Assembly: GCF_001645685.2 (NCBI RefSeq)
Contig: NZ_CP017080.1
Span: 1,044,001-1,108,000, forward strand
Origin: Peribacillus muralis
GTDB taxonomy: Bacteria; Bacillota; Bacilli; Bacillales; DSM-1321
DNA: 64,000 bases
Direction of reading: 5' to 3'
Shown here one piece after another: positions 47,161 through 57,535 of the stretch (positions within the stretch are counted from its first letter, which is position 1; every line of letters begins with the position of its first letter). Both the position numbers and the translations under genes were made by a program. The notes beneath the pieces were generated by a model. That model was not told where the DNA came from. It did no database searches and saw only the letters and a list, made by a program, of their open reading frames with translations.

Positions 47161-47288
47161 ATGGGTAATTATTTTTGTTCGGAATAAGTTTGATAGATGG
47201 ATTTACCGTTATAGGATTCCTCTTGAAACATTATCCAGAACCAAAAATAGTAATAAAATGGATTTTTCCAAACACAGGAGGAACTATC

Positions 47289-47486
47289 ATGGTACAAGGT
47301 AAAGTAAAATGGTTTAACGCAGAAAAAGGTTTCGGTTTCATCGAAGTTGAAGGCCAAGACGATGTATTCGTACATTTCTCAGCTATCCAAGGCGAAGGCT
47401 TCAAAACTCTTGAAGAAGGCCAAGAAGTTTCTTTCGAAATCGAGCAAGGCGCTCGTGGACCACAAGCAGCTAACGTTCAAAAATAA
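47289..47486 (+). CDS. Cold-shock protein (Csp family)
   Basis: 65 aa OB-fold protein with both RNP motifs: KGFGFIEV and VFVHFSAI. Binds single-stranded RNA/DNA as an RNA chaperone. The ATG at 47289 follows AGGAGGA; the longer frame extends only into the leader. Followed by a strong terminator. Confidence 0.95.
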
Positions 47487-47500
47487 TTGAACGCATATAA

Positions 47501-47538
47501 AAAAAGACTCCTTTTTTATGGAGTCTTTTTATTTTTTT
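47501..47538 (+). terminator. Terminator after csp
   Basis: AAAAAGACTCC and GGAGTCTTTTT around TTTTTTAT, followed by a further T-run. Confidence 0.9.
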
Positions 47539-49331: not shown

Positions 49332-51629
49332 TTAACTTGAACAGCTTTCGCAAGCATTGTCATATTCGGAAGAAGTGGAACGAACGTAATATGTTGATTT
49401 CAAACCGCTTTCCCAAGCCGTTAAATGGATATCCAATAGAACCTTCGCTTTGATCGTATTGTGAACATATAAATTAAAGCTGATCGCTTGGTCAATATGC
49501 CTTTGGCGGGCTGCGTTCTGTTTGATGCTTTCCAGCTGGTCCAAATTAAAGCGCGTCTTTTTATAATATTCATACGTATTGGGCGTCAAGCCAGGTGCAG
49601 TCACCTTGAATTTGAAGTTTTTCTTTTCTTCATAAAATTCAATTTCATACAAAGGATCGATTCCATCAGTGGAATTGCCGATCTTGGCAGTAGATGAATT
49701 AGGTGCAATGGCCATTAAGTATCCATTACGAGTCCCATGCTGCTGCACGTTCTCTTTTAAATCAAGCCATTTTTGATCGGTATAGTCACGGAGCTCGAAG
49801 TAATCCCCTGTATGCCAGTCCGAACCTTCAAAATAAGGGTATGATCCTTTTTCCTTCGCCAATTCGTTTGATGCCTTGATCGTCAAGTAAGCGATTTTTT
49901 CGTACAAAGAATCTGCATAGTGAACGGCCTCATCGGATTCCCAATAAATATTTTCTGTGGCAAGTAAATGGTGCCATCCAAAAGTCCCTAAGCCGATTGC
50001 CCGATACCGTTTGTTCGAAATCGATGCCTGCTTGACCGGCAGATTATTCACATCAATGACATTATCGAGCATCCTGATTTGAATGGGGATCAATCTTTCC
50101 AAAACATCGCTGCCGACTGCACGGGGCAAGTTAATCGATGATAGGTTGCAGACAACGAAATCACCGCTTTTACGAACGACGACGACATCCCCATCTTCTG
50201 TTTCGTATTCATCCGTGATTGTCGAAGGACTAAGGTTTTGAGCGATCTCGGTGCAGAGGTTGGAGCAATAAATCATCCCTTTATGCTTATTCGGATTCTT
50301 CCGGTTTACTTCATCACGGTAGAACATATATGGAACGCCTTCTTCTAATTGAGAAATCATGATGCTTTTCATGATGTCCATCGCATTGATCTTTTCAAAG
50401 CCATAGCTTGGCAGCATACCATTTTGAGCGGCTTCGACGGCAAGTGCATAATGATTCCTGAAGCTTCCTTCGCCTTTTTTCTCGTCATATAGATCTTCAA
50501 GTGAGAATCCAAGGGTCTGCTTGACGGTATGCGGGTCAAAAAGGTACCATTCTTTTCTGTCGCGGACAGCCTCCATGAACAAGTCGGGAATGCATACACC
50601 CGTAAAAATATCATGTGCCTTTAATCTGTCATCCCCGTTCTGTGTTTTTAAATCAAGGAAGCTCATGATATCCTTATGCCAGGCATCCAAGTATATCGCT
50701 ATCGCCCCTTTACGCTGACCTAATTGATCGACACTGACGGCAGTCTGGTTGAATAGCCGGATCCAGGGAGTCGTACCTGAACTATTGCCGGAGAAGCCGC
50801 GGATATCGGAACCAAGCGAGCGAATCTTCCCGACATAAAGGCCCACACCACCGCCGAATTTGGAAACCTTGGCGGCATCGTAGTTAGCTAGATAGATGCC
50901 GTCGATTGAATCTTCAATGGCGTCGATGAAGCATGAGCTCAATTGTCCATGCGCTTTACCAGCGTTCGAAAGTGTTGGGGTGGCAACGGTCATATAAAGA
51001 TTGGACATGGCCCAATAAGCTTCTTTTATAAGTTGCAGGCGATGTTCCGTTTTTTCCAAACGCATGATTTCCATCGCGATGATCATGAAGCGTTCTTGGG
51101 GCAGTTCGTATACTTTGTCTTTTTTAGGTCGAGCCAGGTAGCGATCGTTTAGTAAGTAGATGCCTATGTAGGAAAATAGTTTATCTTTTTCAGGGTCGAT
51201 CACTGAACCCAATTCTTCGATTTCTGCTTTAGTATAAGAAGAAAGCAGCTCTGATTTATAAATTGGATAGCGTTGTCCATCTTGCAGTTGTGAAAGTTCC
51301 TGTATAAGGTCATAAAATGGACCATAACTCATGCCTTCATACCCTCGATTGGCCTGTGCATCCCTATACATCGTATTCAATAGCTCTGTAGCTGCGACGA
51401 ACGTCCAATCCGGGGCATCGATATCCACGCTCTCAAGAGCAAGCTGAATCAGTTTTTTTGAAGCCTGTTCATCGGTTGAATCACTTTTGCGATCAAGCCA
51501 TTTCGTAAAACGCTTTTTGAATTTCTCCATATCGAGACGGTCTTCAAATTCCTTCGATAGCATCTCCAGCTGAAGGGAATTCGTTTCAGTATCATTTTCG
51601 CTTATGGTAGAGTTATATGTTTGAGTCAT
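49332..51629 (-). CDS. nrdE: Class I ribonucleotide reductase alpha subunit
   Basis: 765 aa. Catalytic Cys residues in QLSSCFID, CSNLCTEI and FVVCNLSS; C-terminal redox pair CESC at the end (ACESCSS). Specificity-site segment GGGVGLYVGKIRSLGSDIRG. It reduces NDPs to dNDPs with NrdF. N-terminal region is too short for a complete ATP cone. AAGGAGG upstream of ATG. Expression is predicted to be under a cobalamin riboswitch with a terminator immediately upstream. Confidence 0.94.
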   Translation of the reverse strand: MTQTYNSTISENDTETNSLQLEMLSKEFEDRLDMEKFKKRFTKWLDRKSDSTDEQASKKLIQLALESVDIDAPDWTFVAATELLNTMYRDAQANRGYEGMSYGPFYDLIQELSQLQDGQRYPIYKSELLSSYTKAEIEELGSVIDPEKDKLFSYIGIYLLNDRYLARPKKDKVYELPQERFMIIAMEIMRLEKTEHRLQLIKEAYWAMSNLYMTVATPTLSNAGKAHGQLSSCFIDAIEDSIDGIYLANYDAAKVSKFGGGVGLYVGKIRSLGSDIRGFSGNSSGTTPWIRLFNQTAVSVDQLGQRKGAIAIYLDAWHKDIMSFLDLKTQNGDDRLKAHDIFTGVCIPDLFMEAVRDRKEWYLFDPHTVKQTLGFSLEDLYDEKKGEGSFRNHYALAVEAAQNGMLPSYGFEKINAMDIMKSIMISQLEEGVPYMFYRDEVNRKNPNKHKGMIYCSNLCTEIAQNLSPSTITDEYETEDGDVVVVRKSGDFVVCNLSSINLPRAVGSDVLERLIPIQIRMLDNVIDVNNLPVKQASISNKRYRAIGLGTFGWHHLLATENIYWESDEAVHYADSLYEKIAYLTIKASNELAKEKGSYPYFEGSDWHTGDYFELRDYTDQKWLDLKENVQQHGTRNGYLMAIAPNSSTAKIGNSTDGIDPLYEIEFYEEKKNFKFKVTAPGLTPNTYEYYKKTRFNLDQLESIKQNAARQRHIDQAISFNLYVHNTIKAKVLLDIHLTAWESGLKSTYYVRSTSSEYDNACESCSS

Positions 51630-51687: not shown

Positions 51688-51782
51688 ATCAAACGACAGC
51701 ATAAAAGAGCCATGAATGAAATAGCCCTTATACTATCGTTTCATCATCTCAATCCCCGAAGAATAAGAAACGTGAAAAATTC

Positions 51783-51936
51783 AAGGCAGGTCTCCTGACT
51801 CATGATCACCCTACTTCGAGACCTTCCCGTATAGAGAGCTATACAGTGGTTCCTCGTTTCGTCACATTCACAGTTGCGGGGACAGTTCCGGGATTACACC
51901 GGATTCCCTTTTCAGCCATCACTGGCACCTTGGATT
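51783..51936 (-). ncRNA. Cobalamin (B12) riboswitch
   Basis: Minus-strand RNA has the conserved elements in order: GGTGCC, AAAAGGGAATCCGGTG, TCCCGGAACTGTCCCCGCAACTG, GGGAAGG, and GAGTCAGGAGACCTGCCTT (L5/B12-box pattern). It lies 154 nt upstream of nrdE with a terminator between. Cobalamin binding should stop expression of the B12-independent class I RNR when B12 allows use of a class II enzyme elsewhere. Family assignment from conserved sequence is strong. Confidence 0.92.
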
Positions 51937-51943
51937 ATAAAAA

Positions 51944-51959
51944 ATTCTATATATAGTTA
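51944..51959. promoter_or_regulatory. Possible NrdR box
   Basis: ATTCTATATATAGTTA fits the NrdR consensus core CWATATATWG, upstream of the riboswitch and overlapping the presumed nrdE promoter. A second, less clear element is near 51980-51991. No gene is seen in 51960-52240. Confidence 0.4.
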
Positions 51960-53494: not shown

Positions 53495-54799
53495 TCAGGA
53501 TATTTTACTTTTAGAAGTGGCAAGCTTATCAAGCAATAAGGAGCTTTCCAGATCGAGGCCCTGTACATGGACGGCTATGCCTTGATGATGGTATTTAAGG
53601 ACAACCTTATCGACAGCTTCGACTGCAGATGTATCCCATATTTTTGAGCGGGAAAAATCAATGATGATCGTCTCTGCTTCATCATTAACATCGAATTTGG
53701 AAACAAAGTCTTGCACCGAAGCGAAAAAGATTTGTCCTCGGATTTCATAAATCATTTTCTTATTCGTAATGTCCGCCTTTTTTTCGACCGTCACCTTGGA
53801 TATTTCGGCACAGAAGAAAATCATGCGTATAAAGGACGATGATGACAGTCACGATCATCACGGCTGCATCCGTCTTTGGAGCTATCTTGAGCCTCTTATC
53901 ATGACAGCGACAAGCGCAGCCATGGGTATTTTTATAAGGATGTCATTCAATGCGACAATCAATACCATAAGGAAAGCGCCGGCCACAAATGTGGAAAGTC
54001 TGCCTCTGCCCCCTGACTTGATGTTGATTCCGGATTGTCCGATCATTGCGCATCCAGCCATTCCCCCAAAACATCCGGCAATGATATTGCCTAGGCCCTG
54101 TCCTTTTGCCTCCCGATTTTTATTGCTTGGTGTGTCAGTCAGCTCATCGACTATTTGGGCCGTCAATAAAGATTCAAGCAGCCCTACAAATGCAAGCGCT
54201 ATTGAATAGGGCAATATGATAGCCAGCGTTTCAAAGGCCAAAGGGATGTCTGGGAGCATGAATATCGGGAGTGCTTCGGTCAATTGCCCCATATCCCCAA
54301 CTGTACGGACCGTCGCCCCTGTTGAAATGGCGGCGATCGTTATCAAAATGATGGCAACGAGAGGGGAAGGGATGGCCTTCGTAATCCGTGGGAAAAGATA
54401 AATGATCGCTAATGAAACGGCGGTCATGACATACATGACCCAAGATTCACCCGCAAAATGGGTAAGCTGTGCTGTGAATATCAAGAGTGCTAATGAATTC
54501 ACAAAACCAGTCATTATCGTTGCCGCAATTAAATAGTTAAGGCCGTGATCTTTAACAAGGTCGACCATGACAAGTGCCATTGCTCCTGTGGCAGCCGATA
54601 TCATTCCTGGTCTTCCGCCGACAAAAGAGATGACGATGGCAATGCAGAATGAGGCGTATACACCAACCATTGGGTCAACACCAGCAATGATCGAAAACGC
54701 AATGGCCTCCGGAATCATTGCAAAGGCAACGACAATACCTGAAAGAACATCTCCGCGGACGTTGCCGAACCATTCCTGTCTGTATGCAGATATATTCAA
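53495..54799 (-). pseudogene. SulP-family sulfate/anion transporter with STAS domain, disrupted
   Basis: Two separate readings (305 and 109 codons) together cover a SulP permease plus STAS domain. In frame, the stretch between ATIMTG and [10 protein letters not shown] (near 54506) lacks the roughly 25-30 residues usual in SulP proteins. Near 53897 the reading shifts frame after [11 protein letters not shown]; the continuation [20 protein letters not shown] is in another frame. Near 53818 a third gap precedes [14 protein letters not shown] of the STAS part. The protein is therefore truncated and non-functional as a full transporter; a separate STAS polypeptide could still be made from an internal ATG, but no good ribosome site supports it. 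Confidence 0.85.
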
Positions 54800-54899
54800 T
54801 GAAACGCTCCTTTTGCTTTATAAATGGTGTTTACTTTTTCGCGCACTAAATTATAGCATGAGTATATATTTCCAACTATTGGTTTATTAATCCGGGGCG

Positions 54900-55202
54900 A
54901 ACGGAAGCCAGTGGCTCAAGAAGGTCATTATCAAAGGGCTGTCAGGGGCACCTCTAATGGAAAGTGCAAAAAAACGATGAACTTTAATGGAAGGAGTTTG
55001 GATGAATGACGCACTTTCATCAACCTTTGGTCTGTATTCAAGCAGGGTGGTGGATGAAAACGGGAGTTGCCATTATGGAAGGGAGTGAAAGGAAACATAA
55101 TTAGAGGAAAGGCTCATGATTGGTTAAGGGTTGCAGAAACGGGTGAAGCTGATGAACGTAAGGGGGACCATTTTTGTTGGTTTTACCTATATGTTTCCCA
55201 TC
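54900..55202. other. Gap with little coding sign
   Basis: A 28-codon plus-strand ORF at 55002-55088 has AAGGAG 5 nt before its ATG but no recognisable family. The rest shows no gene. Confidence 0.3.
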
Positions 55203-55427
55203 TTACCTAGGGTTAGGCGGGCGGGAGACGGAGTAATTCCCATGAATGATGCTGGATTTACATACGGGGCATGTCACTTCCTTATAATGCTTGAACGTGA
55301 TCTTGCGAAGGTCGCTTCTGGTCAGGATGGCAAATACATGATATCTTGCGCCGCATGCACACGTATTTTTATCTTTAACGATGTGCCGCTCATTTGTATT
55401 AACTGAATAAATGGTTGGAAAAAACAT
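55203..55427 (-). CDS. Small Cys-rich, probably zinc-binding protein (74 aa), riboswitch-linked
   Basis: 74 aa. Two Cys pairs, CAC (in NTCACGARYHV) and CPVC (in EVTCPVCKSS), are spaced as in a minimal zinc ribbon, with a helical LRKITFKHYKEV stretch between. Paralogous to the 61-aa protein at 55662-55847. AGAGGGG lies 6 nt before the ATG. It is the first gene downstream of a cyclic-di-GMP-I riboswitch. Function unknown; a nucleic-acid-binding or regulatory micro-protein is possible. Confidence 0.68.
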   Translation of the reverse strand: MFFPTIYSVNTNERHIVKDKNTCACGARYHVFAILTRSDLRKITFKHYKEVTCPVCKSSIIHGNYSVSRPPNPR

Positions 55428-55504
55428 ATATAACCCCTCTTTTTTCTAATTTTAGGCAAATTAAAAAGAGACAAGAAATAAATAATTAAGCGATTTAATC
55501 AAGA

Positions 55505-55594
55505 TAAATCTTGGCGGCCCGGCTGCCATGACAACCAAGTCGTTGTTTTAGGCCCGTGGCTTTGCGTCTTTTATTTTCATAAAATTTGCCCTTA
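55505..55594 (-). ncRNA. Cyclic-di-GMP-I (GEMM-I) riboswitch
   Basis: On the minus strand: GGGCAAA, a short stem UUUUAU-GAAA-AUAAAA with GNRA tetraloop, then ACGCAAAGCCACGGG and CCUAA, an ACAAC/GUUGU stem, and GGCAGCCGGGCCGCC. Order, tetraloop and the ACGCAAAGCC core are those of GEMM-I. The last G of GGG, which distinguishes c-di-GMP from cGAMP binders, is G. It lies about 80 nt upstream of the Cys-rich gene at 55427. No clear terminator follows, so the expression platform is not evident. Confidence 0.87.
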
Positions 55595-55661
55595 TATAAT
55601 CTTAACATAAAATGACAAGCGATTATTAGATCATGAACAAATACTTTGATCTGTGACTATC

Positions 55662-55847
55662 TTATCGTTCCAATTTGAATTTATCTTTACATGGAGTGCA
55701 GGTTATTTCCGTCATAGGCTTGAAAATGACTTGTTTCAAATCTTTTTTCTCGAATATCCGTCGGTAATTATGAATGATGCCACATTCGCAATAACGTTGA
55801 TTTTTGATGATGTGCACTTTTGAATAAAATGTGAAAGTCGGGTACAT
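55662..55847 (-). CDS. Small Cys-rich, probably zinc-binding protein (61 aa), paralog
   Basis: 61 aa with CEC (RYCECGIIHNY) and CTPC (ITCTPCKDKF). It aligns over its length with the protein at 55203-55427 (shared YS..HI.K, C.CG, DL.......EITC..CK). AAGGAG about 6 nt before the ATG. Its upstream region carries a perfect 11-bp palindrome. The pair looks like a tandem duplication with the riboswitch inserted or retained between the copies. Function unknown. Confidence 0.62.
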   Translation of the reverse strand: MYPTFTFYSKVHIIKNQRYCECGIIHNYRRIFEKKDLKQVIFKPMTEITCTPCKDKFKLER

Positions 55848-55867
55848 GATTAGCTCCTTGTGTATGG

Positions 55868-55892
55868 GTATAATATACTAGGTATATTATAC
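55868..55892. promoter_or_regulatory. Perfect palindrome upstream of the 61-aa gene
   Basis: Arms GTATAATATAC and GTATATTATAC separated by TAG. It contains TATAAT on both strands and sits 21 nt before the ATG, so it can be both -10 region and operator. Confidence 0.55.
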
Positions 55893-56204
55893 TACTTGAA
55901 CACAGTGCTAGGTAACTGATTTTTATAGTGAAGTTGAAATAAACGATAGGGGATATAGGATTTTTTAATTACATGGTTTCGCAGAAAATTCGCCACCCCA
56001 CTATGCAGGAGAACGAAGCTGGAATGAAAGAAAGAACGAGCATCCAATTTGCGGGTAAAACTGCTAAACTCACGGGAAGCGCCCGGACTTAAAGAAAACT
56101 TCTCCACTTCTGCCCATGACTATCGTTTAAGGTTGCTTTAGATACTGTATTAGTCGTGATATGCCAAGAAAGACTGATATCTACCCTTTTATCGGAAGTA
56201 TTGG

Positions 56205-56255
56205 AACCTAAAGAAGATGCTGCCTGCAATATACAGGCAGCATCTTCTTTAGGTT
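56205..56255. terminator. 22-bp perfect hairpin downstream of the MFS gene
   Basis: Arms of 22 nt (core AAAGAAGATGCTGCCTG / CAGGCAGCATCTTCTTT), 7-nt loop. It lies 69 nt after the MFS stop on the minus strand; the T-rich end is inside the stem. Probably a terminator. The region 55893-56204 shows no recognisable gene. Confidence 0.55.
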
Positions 56256-56323
56256 GACTAGCTGCCATCTAAAGTGTCCCTTATAGAGGGATACTTCAGA
56301 TAACAGGATTCTAATAGTGAGTA

Positions 56324-57535
56324 TTAATGGGAACGTGCCAATTCCGGATTGCGGTGCATCGCTAAATAAAGGACCAGTCCGGCGATGAGGAGCAAGGTGC
56401 TGGTCGTGATGAAAACAGCGGAGAATCCATAGAATCCAGCGACCATTCCGCCCATTGCTGGCCCGATGATATTGCCTAAAAAACGAAGACTTGTATTGTA
56501 GCCCAAGACTTCCCCCTGCATTGCGACGGGCGCTTCCTGACGAATATAGGCAATCCTTACTGGGATGATGCCGCCTATGGCCATGCCTAGTAAGAATCGG
56601 ACAAAAACTAACTGCCAAAACTGATTGATGAAGGCTCCAGGCAAGTAAACGAGTGCTGTCAGGAAGAGAAGCAGTACAAGTATCTTCACATGTCCGTGCC
56701 GATCGCCAATTTTGCCCCAGTGACGCGCCATCAGTAGATTCCCCAGTCCTGCTGCGGAAAAGGCGATACCTGAATAAAACCCAAGATTGGAAGTGCCGTG
56801 CAGTTCCCCGACGTATAAGGAAAGTATGGGCTGGATGCTGAAGTGGGCAACTTGGACTAGTGTTGAAATGAGCATGATATTGACAAGGATGGGGTTGCGC
56901 AGGATATGAGAGAGAACTTCCCTGCTAGTGTAGCTTGATTTCGTTCCCGACTGCCGTTTCATTTGGTATTCCTTCGTTGCAATGACGAGGAGACCAGAAA
57001 TGAAAATGGTGATCGAGGTGAATTTGAAAGCGGTAGAATAGCCGACTGTGTCGGCAAGGATGCCGCCAAGCAATGGTCCGAAAAGCGAACCGGTTATATT
57101 TCCCGTTTGCAGCGTTCCAAGAACGCGCCCAGCAATTTCTTTCGGTGTTTGGGTCGAAATGAAGGCCTGTGACATCGATATGAAGCCAGTGAATATCCCC
57201 GTGAACATCCTTAAGATGAATAGCTGCCAAACATTTTCAACGTATCCCATCAAGAAAATGGACAGCCCCATTCCGAAGGCACAAGCAATCAAGATTTTCT
57301 TTCTGCCATAGCGATCGCCAATTCGGCCCCAAACAGGAGAAAATAAAAATGCAGTCACAAAAGTGATTCCGAATGTCCATCCAGACCAATGCTGAATGTA
57401 TTGTGTCGAATAATTTCCGAATGTACCGATGTATAAAGAGATGAATGGAAGGACCATCGTCATGCTTCCGCCAATGAAAAAGTTGGCGAACCACATGATG
57501 GTTAGGTTTCGTTTAGCTATTTGATGTTGTTTCAT
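56324..57535 (-). CDS. MFS multidrug efflux transporter (MdtG-like)
   Basis: 403 aa, 12 TM segments expected. Motif A-like GRIGDRYGRKKIL between TM2 and TM3 and a second HWGKIGDRHGHVKIL in the C-terminal half. Drug/H+ antiporter type, substrate unknown. The ATG has no strong ribosome site nearby; GGAGG lies 19 nt upstream and instead fits a short overlapping ORF (57513-57548). Confidence 0.86.
   Translation of the reverse strand: MKQHQIAKRNLTIMWFANFFIGGSMTMVLPFISLYIGTFGNYSTQYIQHWSGWTFGITFVTAFLFSPVWGRIGDRYGRKKILIACAFGMGLSIFLMGYVENVWQLFILRMFTGIFTGFISMSQAFISTQTPKEIAGRVLGTLQTGNITGSLFGPLLGGILADTVGYSTAFKFTSITIFISGLLVIATKEYQMKRQSGTKSSYTSREVLSHILRNPILVNIMLISTLVQVAHFSIQPILSLYVGELHGTSNLGFYSGIAFSAAGLGNLLMARHWGKIGDRHGHVKILVLLLFLTALVYLPGAFINQFWQLVFVRFLLGMAIGGIIPVRIAYIRQEAPVAMQGEVLGYNTSLRFLGNIIGPAMGGMVAGFYGFSAVFITTSTLLLIAGLVLYLAMHRNPELARSH

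Follow-up and report, generated by a model that had tools for sequence, protein, structure and literature searches.

The question raised by this locus is what a riboswitch of the c-di-GMP-I (GEMM-I) class controls when the gene behind it encodes a protein of only 74 amino acids, and with which sign it would do so. Within the window (the whole stretch of DNA analyzed here, 64 kb), three minus-strand features define the problem.

55510-55600 (-): c-di-GMP-I (GEMM-I) riboswitch aptamer (RF01051, 79.3 bits, E 6.1e-14, model positions 1-87)
55434-55440 (-): Shine-Dalgarno-like AGAGGGG, read from the sequence, 6 nt before the ATG
55203-55427 (-): 74-amino-acid microprotein ORF with C23xC25 and C53xxC56; H15, C25, C53, and C56 are invariant in the family and form a putative zinc site

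The assignment of the aptamer is straightforward. The match spans all 87 model positions and is to be read against a gathering score of 35 bits for RF01051, which bears out the original prediction of a GEMM-I riboswitch on this strand; the GNRA tetraloop (here GAAA) and the GACGCAAAGCC core, on which that prediction relied, are both present in the cmscan alignment and are invariant in all 22 aligned leaders. GGC precedes the AAA stretch in the same 22 leaders, a position that may correspond to G20 of Vc2, where G rather than A selects c-di-GMP over cGAMP. PMC6274999 describes work with cGAMP on a G20A GEMM-I riboswitch. The locus had initially been placed at 55203-55594, which does enclose the ORF, complete with its CxC and CxxC pairs, but falls 6 bases short of the beginning of the aptamer at 55600. 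The aptamer thus belongs convincingly to an established riboswitch class, and the microprotein that is its candidate target is conserved and undescribed. The 5.0-Mb host genome has two further RF01051 matches, with no second match inside the 64-kb window, as well as four GGDEF matches and one EAL match.

The candidacy of the microprotein as the target of a c-di-GMP switch is best judged from how consistently the two elements travel together. RF01051 is matched at least once in each of the 36 genus genomes, a family profile search finds a relative of the microprotein in 34 of them, and in at least 26 of the 36 the relative follows an aptamer in the same orientation at a coordinate difference of 53-83 (82 nt separate aptamer end and ORF start in the window). 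On the strength of the RF01051 score and this joint retention, the pairing is not a matter of chance, and the link between aptamer and microprotein is solid as genomics. It also extends beyond the genus. Among 397 genomes sampled across the order, 17 have a family match, 12 of them in this genus; the remaining five comprise two weak matches (E about 0.002) and three strong ones, and two of the strong ones sit directly behind an aptamer (L071, 84.6 bits; L069, 73.6 bits) in genomes of other genera, one of the two in another family. The third (L076) has no aptamer in the 3.2 kb examined. Of the 64 candidates from a profile search of 5.8 billion proteins, 23 are relatives at E <= 1; the nearest named relatives belong to Peribacillus and Bacillus at 12 of 13 loci, and at the remaining one, in a Brevinematales MAG, the match is partial and covers 29 residues. 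No paper on the microprotein was found in the open-licence PMC literature. Over 58 codons, dN/dS is 0.11-0.18 in 13 of 15 orthologs, namely those whose dS stays below 1; of the other two, one has a ratio of 0.12 at saturated dS, and for the last the ratio is undefined. These ratios indicate a real, conserved gene under purifying selection.

Additional context comes from relatives that are not linked to an aptamer. Six genus genomes without a linked copy have a relative 1.6-4.0 kb from an aptamer on the opposite strand, typically near hpf-like, SinR-like, SecA-like, and flagellar-type genes. The flagellar and SecA names are putative, and Pfam confirms hpf in L003 and the SinR-like protein in L087. 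The relative in L084 is located between CheW/MCP genes and a further MCP gene. By guilt by association, these surroundings are consistent with motility and biofilm formation. A 362-kb plasmid of Peribacillus (L161, NZ_CP133764.1, 21333-21500(-)) also carries a relative, unannotated and with 45% identity, which adjoins a Spo0E-family phosphatase gene and IS110 transposases.

The window holds a second member of the family, next to which a further repeat is found.

55662-55847 (-): divergent tandem paralog of 61 amino acids (36% identity over 45 amino acids, E 8e-11), the second hit in the genome
55868-55892 (no strand): 11-bp perfect inverted repeat with a 3-nt spacer, just upstream of the paralog

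The paralog lies 61 nt upstream of the aptamer, no riboswitch was found ahead of it, and three other genus genomes (G017, G018, and G030) have it at the same place. The arms of the 11-bp repeat are unchanged in L042, L043, and L004, three loci that do not differ from each other over the stretch compared, and one arm is altered in L005; judged from its sequence, the repeat is a possible operator. A 22-bp perfect inverted repeat with a 7-nt loop (56205-56255), which the terminator scan does not list, lies between an MFS transporter gene and the paralog. Elsewhere in the window are a Cobalamin riboswitch (51768-51947(-), 123.6 bits) ahead of a 765-amino-acid ORF (49332-51629(-)), which may encode a ribonucleotide reductase large subunit, and a cspA thermoregulator match (47184-47532(+), 87.4 bits against 78).

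As to the protein itself, ten positions are invariant in all 31 aligned members: P4, T5, H15, I16, K18, C25, G26, F45, C53, and C56. The original prediction had singled out the CxC and CxxC pairs, and three of those cysteines (C25, C53, and C56) are indeed invariant, but it overlooked H15, and C23, the first cysteine of CxC, is a cysteine in just 26 of the 31 members and Phe or Tyr in the remainder; the L084 member, which lies beyond the alignment, has Ser there. With H15, C25, C53, and C56 unchanged throughout the 31 members while C23 varies, the probable metal ligands are these four residues and not the complete CxC and CxxC pairs. This conservation, taken with weak matches to zinc-ribbon models, makes the microprotein probably zinc binding. 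Among the 31 members, two match the Pfam double zinc ribbon model (E 0.00086) and two match Zn_ribbon_3 (E 0.00096); phage zinc-binding Pfam models are weakly matched by 3 of 31 members (best E 0.0022) and 1 of 31 (best E 0.021). For the window protein, the best match is E 0.057 in Pfam (14.1 bits, cut-off 27) and E 0.013 in NCBIfam (15.3 bits, cut-off 83), so that the expectation of no known family stands; Pfam does not find a SinI domain in it, and the PHROG search gives no match below E 0.001. In the 15 other aptamer-linked orthologs examined, the protein is 63-65 residues long, and the last ten residues of the 74-residue window protein align with sequence behind the stop codon in several relatives.

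Structure prediction by AlphaFold2 gives a pLDDT of 81.5 and a pTM of 0.67 for the window protein, and 78.3 and 0.57 for a second member. The order of elements is the same in both models: strands at 2-8 and 13-17, a short helix at 37-41, a strand at about 44-47, and a helix at 54-61, with C53xxC56 placed at the start of a helix and the putative ligand His in a strand. As modeled, this order is compatible with an arrangement of zinc knuckle, hairpin, and helix. No sequence or fold match was found in the PDB, and none of the structure searches points to a zinc-finger class; structural resemblance is solely to uncharacterized viral proteins, and weak (best E 0.79).

The leader between aptamer and gene suggests how a switch might operate, through the following elements.

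55583-55590 (-): 5' part of the aptamer core, GGCAAATT, invariant in 22 of 22 leaders and able to pair with the platform motif
55455-55462 (-): anti-aptamer motif AATTTGCC, a perfect 8-nt complement of 55583-55590
55436-55471 (-): hairpin covering the Shine-Dalgarno site when the aptamer is formed, predicted from folds; its shuffle control is not significant

In an alignment of 22 leaders from aptamer start to start codon, the platform is variable, yet AATTTGCCT, at 9 of 71 platform columns (25 invariant), is the longest unbroken invariant run, a length reached in 156 of 100000 column permutations. A run on seven leaders, which included two from other genera and the two that were skipped in folding 24 leaders (see below), finds all eight AATTTGCC/GGCAAATT pairs in six, both other-genus leaders among them, and 7 of 8 in L099. 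Both pairings are preserved in distant leaders: L098, L100, and L071 retain AATTTGCC and have a hairpin C-G in place of the U-A of most of the genus, and L069 has AGTTTGCC, which preserves 8 of 8 pairs through one G-U, the matching hairpin pair being G-C instead of A-U. The comparison therefore points to evolutionary conservation of a predicted, mutually exclusive anti-aptamer pairing. Complement length as such is less telling, being reached by 348, 28, 33, 148, and 56 of 2000 dinucleotide shuffles in the five leaders tested, of which the window platform with its 8 nt (348) is the weakest.

Folding calculations fit this arrangement unevenly. Averaged over 22 of 24 leaders, two having been skipped, the mean unpaired fraction of the Shine-Dalgarno site is 0.54 when no constraint is set; enforcing the aptamer gives 0.23, and enforcing the alternative gives 0.83. 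Without ligand, the alternative fold is favored in 13 of 22 leaders (by 0.2-3.5 kcal/mol), even in two, and disfavored in seven (by 0.1-4.4 kcal/mol). In the window leader it is 4.0 kcal/mol less favorable than the aptamer state, with a free unpaired fraction of 0.23, and the equilibrium fold there is therefore OFF even without ligand; an open state in this species would need co-transcriptional folding. The run on seven leaders has the site closed without ligand in six (unpaired 0.01-0.25) and open in L098 alone (0.87), and enforcing the alternative opens it only partly in L100 (0.40), L099 (0.44), and L069 (0.53). With the aptamer formed, the ribosome-binding site was no better closed than in dinucleotide-shuffled platforms for the five leaders tested (148, 157, 41, 18, and 64 of 200 shuffles equal or exceed the observed closure), and isolated hairpins compared with shuffles have z-scores of +0.6 to -2.7. 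For window positions 54700-56400, which include the leader, a simple terminator scan lists nothing resembling a terminator on the minus strand.

The two sister switches of the host place the locus into physiological context. Both precede SinI-domain proteins (L002:1348-1494(-) and L003:1330-1470(-)), which score 37.4 and 41.5 bits against Pfam SinI (PF08671; cut-off 31.4), and one of these genes adjoins a SinR-like gene with HTH and SinI domains. In the L003 leader, the final CC of the aptamer takes part in a hairpin at the ribosome-binding site (-11.0 kcal/mol, compared with -4.8 when this CC is left out), which in the modeled fold suggests an ON switch, opposite to the sign proposed for the microprotein leader. 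Across the genus, among the matches listed, 92 riboswitch rows (91 distinct) include 16 followed by the microprotein family and 30 (29 distinct) followed by a motif-tagged SinI-like ORF, tags that are simple patterns, with some rows lacking a clear ORF and a few untagged ORFs also being SinI-like. Other targets include, in L103, a receiver protein of the response-regulator type and, in L142, a dCache/HAMP receptor. Aptamer number varies as well: four genus genomes (G026, G009, G011, and G022) have 10-17 and 18 of 36 exactly 3, and among the matches listed some aptamers of those four precede chemoreceptor-like or secreted-protein-like ORFs. A hydrophobic 37-amino-acid peptide (MDGLNAFMKGLIWGTLFSVPLWLSFFGW...) recurs about 340-375 nt behind some other riboswitches (L104, L105, L119, L121, L132, and others).

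From these data we infer a response to the ligand, its OFF sign, metal binding, and a cellular role. Taken together they suggest a translational c-di-GMP OFF switch ahead of a small, probably zinc-binding protein that is a partner or regulator in the motile state, a proposal to which we would give a little less than an even chance. When c-di-GMP is low, the 5' aptamer core GGCAAATT would pair with AATTTGCC in the leader; this pairing would break the aptamer and leave the ribosome-binding site open, and the protein could be made. When c-di-GMP is high, the ligand would hold the aptamer together and free the AATTTGCC stretch, which could then join the hairpin over the ribosome-binding site so that the protein would not be made. 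A single metal ion, held by H15, C25, C53, and C56, most likely forms the center of the protein's fold, and in the motile, low-c-di-GMP state the protein would be expected to serve as a small partner or regulator along the axis to which SinI also belongs. We infer this placement on the motile/biofilm axis from the neighborhoods and targets described above.

Several other explanations bear on different parts of this proposal. The sign or the level of control might be another one, with c-di-GMP raising expression or acting through RNA stability or transcription; we regard this as unlikely, though to be reckoned with. GEMM-I switches of both signs are known according to PMC9262584, a table in PMC7793685 gives B. 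thuringiensis mcpA an 'off' and cbpA an 'on' c-di-GMP riboswitch, and the equilibrium fold is closed without ligand both in the window species and in 6 of 7 leaders of the seven-leader run. Against this, the conserved complement would pair in competition with the core of the aptamer and therefore fits OFF rather than ON, which on grounds of conservation would make OFF the likeliest sign, and control at the level of transcription sits poorly with a scan that lists no terminator-like site on the minus strand at 54700-56400. It would be more surprising still if the riboswitch bound its ligand with no appreciable regulation in the cell, a behavior with a precedent in Bc1 of B. thuringiensis, which binds c-di-GMP while its downstream genes do not respond in vivo, as PMC11218506 reports. 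The explanation given for Bc1, however, is a dual terminator, which has no counterpart in our terminator scan, and the fact that gene, aptamer, and platform motif remain linked across the genus, and also in two genomes from outside it, suggests selection for function. That the ORF is untranslated and the RNA itself the product is scarcely credible: translation is predicted from the sequence alone, but an ATG that is invariant with a G-rich site ahead of it in the 22 aligned leaders, together with the low dN/dS of 13 of the 15 orthologs, argues for a protein.

The cellular role is the part for which a different explanation has an appreciable probability, if one clearly below even. The microprotein may not be a regulator of motility or biofilm formation at all, and could instead act in metal handling, in phage-related interference, or in binding RNA polymerase as other small zinc proteins do. 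The weak viral resemblance and phage zinc-binding matches noted above would fit such a role, as would the unannotated plasmid copy near a Spo0E-family gene and IS110 transposases. Yet phage records contain no relative at E <= 1, nor was one found in viral contigs scanned by a single peptide pattern, and the GEMM-I targets of the genus, like the neighbors of the unlinked relatives, point to motility and biofilm. If the OFF switch ahead of a motile-state regulator is accepted, it could further be speculated that Peribacillus puts one aptamer class to two opposite uses, c-di-GMP turning SinI and hence matrix derepression on and the HCCC zinc microprotein off, so that removal of a motile-state regulator would be part of entry into the biofilm; this wider scheme we consider improbable as it stands.

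The riboswitch class is well known, and what is new is a conserved, undescribed protein family as its candidate target, found mostly in one genus of soil bacteria among the genomes searched. The riboswitch would provide a direct handle, c-di-GMP, on when the microprotein is made, and if the reciprocal logic with SinI were true, one second messenger would split motile and sessile programs purely by the design of leader RNA. Linkage across the genus and more widely, the probable OFF sign, the tandem paralog, and the sister SinI switches all go beyond the original prediction. That prediction had seen in the microprotein a possible new type of c-di-GMP effector or regulator; we treat it as a candidate target of the c-di-GMP switch and not as a protein that itself binds c-di-GMP.

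Comparison with known systems helps to place both halves of the locus. The anti-sigma factors Fin and Gin are small zinc-ribbon or treble-clef proteins of Gram-positive bacteria. The microprotein resembles proteins of this type in size, in its number of putative metal ligands, and in the modeled position of C53xxC56 at a helix start, but differs in falling below the Pfam and NCBIfam cut-offs, in having no fold match in the PDB, and in placing one putative ligand His in a strand.

Among riboswitches, the window aptamer agrees with the RF01051 family (Vc2, Cd1, Bc1, and Bc2) in being full length with the GNRA tetraloop and core. According to PMC9262584, Cd1 switches flagellar proteins OFF at the level of transcription, and Vc2 is an OFF switch that acts on translation. 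The locus departs from that family in its undescribed microprotein target and in its predicted platform, a Shine-Dalgarno hairpin competing with the 5' aptamer core, with no terminator listed on that strand. Closer to the host, PMC4342826 places a c-di-GMP riboswitch before sinI in Bacillus methanolicus MGA3 and names two more c-di-GMP riboswitch targets there without assigned function (BMMGA3_15625 and BMMGA3_15380), and PMC7793685 reports that sinI of B. thuringiensis is upregulated at high c-di-GMP; the accessible passages of PMC9331176 do not mention c-di-GMP. The microprotein differs from the B. methanolicus sinI target in that Pfam finds no SinI domain in it, whereas the aptamer class is the same and the host's own sister targets in L002 and L003 match the SinI model above its cut-off.
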